This document shows, piece after piece, positions 20,061 to 21,555 of a DNA stretch of 64,000 nt. Position numbers and translations under genes: made by a program. The notes under the pieces were generated by a model. It worked only from the letters and a program-made list of their open reading frames with translations. It searched no databases and was not told where the DNA came from. Positions within the stretch are counted from its first letter, which is position 1, and each line of letters begins with the position of its first letter. Source of the DNA: Bacillota bacterium (lineage in GTDB: Bacteria; Bacillota; Clostridia; Peptostreptococcales; Anaerovoracaceae); NCBI GenBank assembly GCA_017557505.1, contig JAFYYP010000025.1, positions 1-64,000 of the forward strand, written 5' to 3'.

Positions 20061-20109
20061 AACTTGCCTGGACTGCCGCGACCCGGTGAACTTGTGACCC
20101 ATAGAATCA

Positions 20110-20136
20110 AAACCTGCCGTTTCCCGGCAGGTTTTT
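20110..20136 (+). terminator. Terminator after XRE/membrane pair
   Basis: AAACCTGCCG, loop TTTCC, CGGCAGGTTT then TT. Confidence 0.85.
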
Positions 20137-20154
20137 GCTTTTGGAAAGATCATT

Positions 20155-20191
20155 GTTAAGCAATTATACAAGAGACCAAGATGCGCTTAAC
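20155..20191. repeat. GTTAAGC-N23-GCTTAAC unit A
   Basis: Inverted heptamers 30 bp apart, the left limit of the orphan-gene island. Unit B begins exactly 95 bp later. Confidence 0.8.
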
Positions 20192-20249
20192 AGTTTTTTC
20201 TAAGGCTAGACATAGGTGTATACGCTGCTTCAGGCTAAGTTGCCACGTC

Positions 20250-20286
20250 GTTAAACATTTGTATATAAGCTGGGTAAAAGCTTAAC
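20250..20286. repeat. GTTAAGC-N23-GCTTAAC unit B (one mismatch)
   Basis: GTTAAAC at 20250 and GCTTAAC at 20280, the same 30-bp offset. Exactly 95 bp separate it from units A and C. Confidence 0.75.
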
Positions 20287-20344
20287 TATATCAGGGAACA
20301 TTACGTTTTGCTTTGAGTCAATTGCCAGGGTCATCGCAGTTTAT

Positions 20345-20381
20345 GTTAAGCGACATGCCATGCGCGACAGCAACGCTTAAC
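20345..20381. repeat. GTTAAGC-N23-GCTTAAC unit C
   Basis: Lies 23 bp beyond the stop codon of the orphan nuclease-like gene. Apart from the heptamers, it shares no clear sequence with units A and B. Confidence 0.8.
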
Positions 20382-20404
20382 ATTGAAGCATCTGGCGTTT
20401 GCCC

Positions 20405-21283
20405 TTACGATAGATTTCCCGGAAAGTACATTGCATCGATCGATGCCCGGACCAGATCTATGCTGATTCCGCCGTATTCGTCATCAAACGTCACGAACAG
20501 GTTTTTCCCCAGTACGATGCCGGCTCTTCTATAGAGGATCAGTCTACGGATCGTATCTGCGGTATATCCTTCATCCTGCAATCCCAGGTGTTCATGGTAA
20601 ATGAAACGGCCGTCTGCCCGTACGCCGCGAATATCCGGCGATACGAATTCTCCGTCGATCTCAAGTACCTCATCGTAATGATAGTAGATCCCCTTGCGGT
20701 CATATTCACTCGTAACCAACACCTCTGATTTCGATCTTGCCCAGAATCCGCGGTTAGCGCGGTGAATCTTATGTTCGAGTTTCTTGGTGTTCTCCCGGTA
20801 AGGCAGTTCTGCCCATTCCTGTGCGCTTATGCCTTCTAACTGCAGCGCAGGAGTTCCCGGACGCACGAATGGATTCCGGGATGGATTCGGCCATTTTCCG
20901 GTATTCTGCAACGCCGGATTCGTGAGGTCCCGGATGTCGAGCGTGTCAAAATGCTTCGGCAAACTCCTGAGCAGAGCTGTTTCATCTAAAGATATGCTGG
21001 ACGCAAGAGCGCGTTCGAGCTGCCTGATATTGATATCGATCCGGTCGAGTTCTTCCAGAAGATATGCTTTCCTCGCCAACCGGCAAACGAGTTCTTTGTC
21101 CCGGCCGATCCCTTTCGGCTTTTTCCTGCTGTTAGGCGGAGCGATATCGAAGCAGGACCTCCGTGATCCATTGGAAGAGATCATCAACTTGCCCTCAGGC
21201 ATTTTATTTAGTTCAATGTTAAGCATTCGTCGTTGCTTCTTTAAGCTGCTTAACAATTGCTCTATCGCTTTATATCCAGCCAT
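20405..21283 (-). CDS. Orphan nuclease-like protein, PD-(D/E)XK-type pattern
   Basis: A 292-residue protein. The N-terminal 100 residues are helical (LEELDRIDINIRQLERAL). The C-terminal part matches a poorly described clostridial family with RSKSE at 183-187, E208, SPDIRG with D217, and YHEHLG with E231 and H232, an order compatible with a PD-(D/E)XK nuclease core. The start ATG has GAGG 9 bases upstream and lies behind a consensus promoter. The gene is AT-rich compared with both neighbours and alone on its strand, so it is probably acquired. Five GTTAAGC-N23-GCTTAAC units flank it or lie within its first 22 codons. The nuclease activity is inferred. Confidence 0.7.
   Translation of the reverse strand: MAGYKAIEQLLSSLKKQRRMLNIELNKMPEGKLMISSNGSRRSCFDIAPPNSRKKPKGIGRDKELVCRLARKAYLLEELDRIDINIRQLERALASSISLDETALLRSLPKHFDTLDIRDLTNPALQNTGKWPNPSRNPFVRPGTPALQLEGISAQEWAELPYRENTKKLEHKIHRANRGFWARSKSEVLVTSEYDRKGIYYHYDEVLEIDGEFVSPDIRGVRADGRFIYHEHLGLQDEGYTADTIRRLILYRRAGIVLGKNLFVTFDDEYGGISIDLVRASIDAMYFPGNLS
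21218..21254. repeat. GTTAAGC-N23-GCTTAAC unit D, inside coding sequence
   Basis: Spans codons 10-22 of the orphan gene, so the spacing is kept within a reading frame. Confidence 0.8.
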
Positions 21284-21317
21284 GGATGACAACCTCATAA
21301 ATTGACAATATATGGTA

Positions 21318-21346
21318 ATTATAGAGGGGCTAATACAGAATATCAA
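21318..21346 (-). promoter_or_regulatory. Promoter of orphan nuclease-like gene
   Basis: TTGATA (21346-21341), 17-bp spacer and TATAAT (21323-21318) on the minus strand, placed between repeat units D and E. Confidence 0.75.
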
Positions 21347-21405
21347 GTAAAAATAGAGATATATGGATTTGTAAGTCGGTTTATTTTTCCCATCGGACAA
21401 AAAAT

Positions 21406-21442
21406 GTTAAGCGGTTGAGGATAGCTTTGCAATGTGCTTAAC
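21406..21442. repeat. GTTAAGC-N23-GCTTAAC unit E
   Basis: Right limit of the island, upstream of the orphan gene's promoter and 188 bp from unit D. Confidence 0.8.
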
Positions 21443-21555
21443 AGTGCGGGCCGAGAGAGGGGCAAGACATGCTCTTGCTTGTTTCACCGCTTCATTTTTG
21501 ATATCTTAATATTGAGAGAAATACAGCATGAAAACCGTATAGGAGGACAGGACCC

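Follow-up and report, generated by a model that had tools for sequence, protein, structure and literature searches.

The nuclease gene at positions 20405–21283 of the window (the whole 64,000-nucleotide stretch of DNA that was analysed) and the paired repeats around it appear to belong to a large family of chromosomal modules, each made up of a nuclease gene and its array. Each nuclease would bind its own phased array, autoregulate, and be linked to dispersed copies of that array in a REPIN/RAYT-like manner, with an unrelated enzyme; we put the probability of this reading at roughly 0.6. Binding, cutting and mobility are read here from sequence. Association, geometry and conservation argue for specific binding, and autoregulation and mobility are what we infer. 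The features of the locus are as follows.

20155..20191, no strand: dyad unit A, GTTAAGC-N23-GCTTAAC, exact match
20250..20286, no strand: dyad unit B, one mismatch
20345..20381, no strand: dyad unit C, exact match
21218..21254, no strand: dyad unit D, within the 5' end of the gene, exact match
21406..21442, no strand: dyad unit E, 188 bp from D, exact match
20405..21283, minus strand: 292-residue PD-(D/E)XK-like nuclease gene (product P0001), with a variable N-terminal part, from a 32-member family alignment
21318..21346, minus strand: probable sigma-70 promoter of the gene, TTGATA-N17-TATAAT, 11/12 consensus positions
20090..21553 (approximate), no strand: stretch missing between the same flanking genes in genome G002, which has ~40 other bp there instead

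A search of the window confirmed the five paired units that the sequence-only reading had reported, four exact and the one at 20250 with a single mismatch, which flank and enter the 292-residue gene. With up to 2 mismatches allowed, 100 shuffles averaged 0.12 such dyads and never gave more than 1. The same search of the whole assembly (2.2 Mb, 56 contigs, 87% complete) gave 7 matches, of which the 2 outside the window locus both carry 2 mismatches, and a reversed control pattern gave 5. The centre spacings of 95, 95, 873 and 188 bp correspond to 9.05, 9.05, 83.1 and 17.9 turns of 10.5 bp, in agreement with the earlier observation that A, B and C (95 bp) and D and E (188 bp) are spaced near whole helical turns. 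The units are also alike only in their heptamers, as had been claimed, their interiors being 13–39% identical to one another, and the unit placed within the first 22 codons is unit D, which covers about codons 10–22. The description of the gene as AT-rich holds solely relative to the window, since the GC content is 46% for the stretch 20150–21445, 50% for the gene and 57% for the window. The candidate promoter (midpoint 21332) lies midway between units D and E (midpoint 21330), in a region where a promoter scan showed no excess over shuffles (2 sites, mean 2.4). At the strictly chosen family loci described below, 15 units fall within the first 120 nt of a coding sequence and 10 of these are centred 41–53 nt from the start codon used; in this count the start of the window gene was placed 5 codons upstream, and its unit would then be centred at 47.

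The PD-(D/E)XK-like signature resides in the C-terminal half of the protein, whereas the N-terminal half varies between members. The family has the catalytic E, PD and E residues of this superfamily, with aligned E187 and D217 each found in 149/149 full-length copies, E231 in 148/149, and K or R at position 247 in 149/149. For the core fold, a profile search of solved structures returned only matches with E values of at least 0.37. The ratio dN/dS between P0001 and its orthologue in sister genome G001 is 0.077, at a dS of 1.23 that is near saturation; by this ratio, the window gene is under purifying selection. The window protein matched nothing in NCBIfam or PHROGs up to an E value of 1 and gave sub-threshold Pfam matches only, and 32 members compared with Pfam and NCBIfam gave weak, scattered matches only. 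The family therefore seems to be nameless.

Family matches were found in 52 of 196 related genomes (the window's own included), and profile matches in 60 of 391 genomes drawn from the class, some of them being the C-terminal domain alone inside long proteins. There are up to 14 matches per genome, some of which are two pieces of one gene. The window's own genome contains a second full-length paralogue (L165), and a search of genome contigs gave a single relative (L006). The relatives include a Bacillota metagenome-assembled genome from goat abomasum. The counts below refer to 149 full-length copies; 10 of 159 loci were dropped for want of a full-length gene, as were second copies of the window locus and of the G001 locus, and any locus retrieved for its flanking genes.

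Around the 149 copies, an unsupervised search for inverted 7-mers that recur (offsets 27–35, with 2 mismatches tolerated) found 107 loci with three or more units of the same inverted arm, where dinucleotide shuffles gave 11.5; at least 4 units were present at 56 loci (0.2 in shuffles), at least 5 at 39 loci (0.0 in shuffles), and fewer than 3 at 42 loci. Six control windows of nine other offsets each gave at least 3 units in 46–82 loci and at least 4 in 15–42, which is above the shuffles partly because the arms of neighbouring units pair, and calls for caution. A strict rule, of at least 4 units or 3 units with at least 39/42 matches, retained 74 loci. These contain 375 units of their own motifs (about five per locus by choice, since the motifs were chosen from the 74 loci themselves), compared to 7 units in 191 same-genome paralogue comparisons, two of which gave 2 units each. 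The recurrence around homologues that the sequence-only reading had envisaged thus holds for the geometry and fails for the heptamer, and each paralogue studied has a private motif within a geometry common to the family. The more alike two proteins are, the more alike their motifs tend to be, although the trend is not strictly monotonic and close pairs are few: similarity goes from ~0.09 below 30% identity to 0.27 at 50–60% (15 pairs), 0.23 at 60–75% (8 pairs) and 0.42 above 75% (4 pairs). Mean information peaks 12–19 bp from the dyad (58/74 loci), within limits set by the scanned offsets of 27–35. A homologue in G567 (L269, 58%) has no array of its own. Two loci have very long arrays, L114 with 24 units at ~53 bp and L181 with 16 at 52 bp; on either side of L114 the units are almost the same as one another, which suggests recent tandem growth. 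A search for protein positions that covary with the motif yielded only modest correlations (top partial correlation 0.27, about residues 35–55 of P0001), which were not relied on.

The strongest sign of complexes on one face of duplex DNA is the spacing between units. The 132 locus-distinct spacings no longer than 260 bp fall preferentially at multiples of 10.5 bp (R 0.687, p about 1e-27, with spacings treated as independent in this and the following p value). Where interiors have diverged (46 loci), R reaches 0.758 at 10.5 bp (91 spacings, p 2e-23), and 10.5 bp is the best period for these arrays in a scan of 5–20 bp. The 28 other loci gave an R of 0.534 (41 spacings), and one spacing per locus gave 0.704 (n=74). 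Such phasing implies that the sites are apparently read as duplex DNA. We propose that the nuclease would sit on the dyads as a dimer or higher oligomer with half-sites ~12–19 bp on either side of the centre, that is, about three helical turns apart, and that whole-turn spacing would place successive complexes on one face in a wrapped or looped assembly. The earlier suggestion that a protein occupies paired sites along one face of the DNA is supported, and the gene product is the probable binder.

All five units are kept in place in G001, with arms of 5/7 and 7/7 identical positions around an interior of 11/23 for unit A, 5/7 and 7/7 around 10/23 for B, 7/7 and 6/7 around 14/23 for C, 6/7 and 7/7 around 20/23 for D (which is coding), and 7/7 and 6/7 around 14/23 for E. 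Between the window and G001, intergenic arms are identical at 50/56 positions, interiors at 49/92 and other intergenic DNA at 155/269 (p 7e-7). An orthologous gene-less array compared between G488 and G567 gave 35/36 for core arms and 95/136 for the rest (p 3e-4), most G488 arrays having been found by their arms, so that arm conservation there is partly ascertained. Arms outlast interiors in the two orthologue comparisons able to resolve it. In a pool of 12 orthologue pairs, 5 of which have no aligned arms, the difference between arms and all else was not significant (p 0.11; arms 286/314, interiors 412/530, other flanking DNA including coding 7830/8834). Arm changes are mostly one-sided: among 2350 cells, 347 are one-sided, 14 compensatory and 18 two-sided non-compensatory, and the two-sided changes exceed the independence expectation (32 vs 18). 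These largely uncompensated changes speak against the processing of folded single-stranded hairpins.

Gene-less arrays of the same motif occur elsewhere in gene-holding genomes of three lineages: the window's genus (G001 and G003), the genus of G488, and G430. The window's own genome has none. Motif scans covered these three, together with single dyads in G220 and G369. Within the window's genus, TGTTAA-N27-TTAACA has 4, 9, 7 and 2 occurrences in the four genomes that carry a gene of the window's specificity (at least 55% identical to the window gene) and none in the four that lack one, a few of the G001 and G003 matches belonging to other sequences or to paralogue L040. At the L040 locus (G003:C324), a complete gene adjoins a fragment of a gene, and the dyads are of the GTTAAGAT type. 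Among 91 genomes outside the genus, 20 gave one or two matches, about the same as for the reversed control. The sequence-only reading had counted the same motif without the gene as evidence against itself. Such copies do exist in sister genomes, and in the genus they are confined to genomes with a gene of cognate specificity, being present in 4/4 with it and 0/4 without. Two solo arrays fetched from each of G001 and G003 have no gene by profile search; in one of these (L212) tblastn gave a weak match of 53 residues, perhaps the remnant of a gene.

The largest set is found in G488, with 41 units (0 for the control) at the gene and at 17 solo loci, the latter accounting for 37 units. A nuclease profile search of the fetched flanks of the 17 solo loci found none, and the nearest homologue among the matches listed is ~7.5 kb away. 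Fifteen of the 17 align to another solo locus, and L248 and L263 align to none. Eleven are homologous over about 172 bp, and 19 pairs among these eleven align over 174–196 bp at 67–81% identity, one of the 19 being aligned over 324 bp at 93.5% with shared flank. Among the ends of the alignments of G488 solo pairs, 59/76 lie within 5 bp of an outer arm. Inspection of 18 array copies by eye revealed no target-site duplications. G430, on one contig, has 14 of 15 matches in three clusters, two of them without a gene (control 3). A TTAGCC motif occurs in 2 of 13 genomes of the G220 genus, both with the gene, which was looked for in those 2. The first arm of the solo array overlaps the stop codon of the preceding ORF at three G488 loci (L253, L255 and L260). 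Additionally, comparison with L267 shows a ~670 bp stretch containing an ORF directly before a G488 solo array (L259:905-1572) that is missing at the orthologous G567 site; we take this ORF to be peptidase E-like.

These patterns suggest that the arrays are dispersed as small elements that do not move on their own: the nuclease, itself conserved, would cut at or near array ends, host repair would copy the array, and the gene could end up between two array copies, the position in which it lies at L148, L072 and L062. Spread of this kind would be slow and nuclease-driven. In the related species G567, arrays are present at two sites orthologous to those of G488, one conserved and one rebuilt, an outcome that slow vertical maintenance would explain no less well than mobility. 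A new kind of mobile-repeat system, in which PD-(D/E)XK nucleases with many private specificities each assemble on phased dyad arrays and copy them through the chromosome as non-autonomous elements, is proposed tentatively, at somewhat less than even odds.

A sequence-specific regulator, whose arrays would be regulon operators at its own and other genes and whose nuclease fold would serve binding or a minor role, is the best surviving alternative, although we consider it unlikely. The bracketing of the probable promoter by units D and E accords with it, as do the arrays kept at the two orthologous solo sites and the upstream bias of the units at the strict loci (246 lie upstream of the gene and 112 downstream; within the coding sequence, 15 fall in its first 120 nt and 2 further on). 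However, rough ORF calls for the 12 G488 solo arrays with assignable neighbours place ~6 between convergent, 5 between tandem and 1 between divergent genes, the full-length homology among solo arrays is unlike that of separately arisen operators, and the catalytic residues are nearly invariant. In the preferred reading of a nuclease bound to its own array, the units around the promoter would also repress the gene, D and E bracketing the probable promoter symmetrically.

Slightly less probable is a homing or transposing element, a self-moving gene whose ends are the arrays. Units occur on both sides of the gene at 19/74 loci. In addition, inspection of 7 loci, chosen because their spacings matched, showed genes between 183–241-bp direct array repeats of 91–93% identity at three of them (L148, L072 and L062), a 52-bp direct repeat at L037 and an inverted repeat at L184. 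In the empty-site comparison proposed by the sequence-only reading, G002 lacks the element between the same flanking genes, but its left flank is itself mosaic and it is not a clean empty site; G003 has a homologue on the other side of the same flanking gene. Against self-movement of the gene, units are one-sided at 55/74 loci, the paralogues are mostly divergent (21 pairs at 60% identity or more among 149 proteins), and the family is nearly absent from the viral contigs, phage and plasmid records searched. Viral scans with P0001, A2 and A4 gave no relative, and a scan with A3 gave 4 domain-only loci.

An anti-phage or anti-plasmid nuclease, parked at its own arrays and released or aimed upon infection, is improbable. 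The C-terminal domain matches the PADLOC candidate PDC-S68 in 32/32 scanned members, and plasmid genes bearing AAA ATPase or RecQ helicase annotations (NZ_AP028130.1, NZ_CP013539.1 and AP018310.1) contain related domains. PDC-S68 and HEAT_CxxC_PDDEXK share a C-terminal nuclease domain with the family, but the PDC-S68 models are ~1200 residues long and matched at their end alone, HEAT_CxxC_PDDEXK matches only about residues 171–256 of P0001, and private dispersed arrays would be left unexplained. The earlier proposal of a defence island is unsupported, only the C-terminal domain matching PADLOC candidate models; as a whole, the earlier interpretation is partly supported. An integron cassette array or a hairpin or RNA repeat (CRISPR-like) is very improbable, for although GTTAAGC and GCTTAAC fit the integron core consensus and the arms could pair, this heptamer is peculiar to the window subfamily and the other paralogues have unrelated arms instead of the one-consensus core sites of an attC array, arm changes are mostly uncompensated, the phasing implies duplex DNA, and the lone Rfam match, at half the gathering score, lies on a terminator left of unit A.

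The known arrangement closest in logic is that of REPIN/RAYT (TnpA-REP, REPtron) systems, described in PMC3116915 and PMC8266576 as single-copy enzyme genes, each beside its own type of palindromic repeat with dispersed extragenic copies. As in those systems, a distinctive enzyme gene adjoins its own repeats (at 74/149 loci by the strict rule and 107/149 by the loose one), and extragenic gene-less copies are dispersed in G001, G003, G488 and G430. The enzyme is PD-(D/E)XK-like here, in contrast to the HUH Y1 enzyme of RAYT, and 0/32 members matched the Y1 HUH transposase domain in Pfam at E of 0.1 or below. Moreover, the repeats here are short-arm pairs ~30 bp apart with 10.5 bp phasing, apparently read as duplex, and many homologous genes are found per genome. 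The private arrays and dispersed gene-less copies thus suggest a system that works like a REPtron without being one, and membership is not claimed because the enzyme differs. A search of open-licence PubMed Central, with terms that were perhaps too narrow, found no description of the nuclease–array pairing. If the reading is correct, the REPIN/RAYT arrangement would have been reached a second time by an unrelated route, in a seemingly nameless family, although its newness would shrink if the system were counted as a kind of REPtron. The 74 homologous proteins with readable, matched target sites allow one to ask how a nuclease family shifts its DNA specificity, and also why bacteria retain dispersed phased arrays; they could conceivably form a natural library of DNA readers sharing one fixed geometry.

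Two other nuclease groups resemble the family in part. Rpn (YhgA-like) nucleases likewise have several genes per genome; we know of no private phased arrays for them, nor of any arrays for DUF790/Bax1. The Rpn Pfam family, whose nucleases are the subject of PMC5350276 and PMC10327210, was matched by 0/32 members at E of 0.1 or below. Weak domain similarity to DUF790/Bax1 was found in 4/32 members (best 4e-5), and the array nucleases have a conserved K or R after the third motif, as is noted for DUF790 in PMC1913061; Bax1 is described as a partner of the XPB helicase in PMC7293015.
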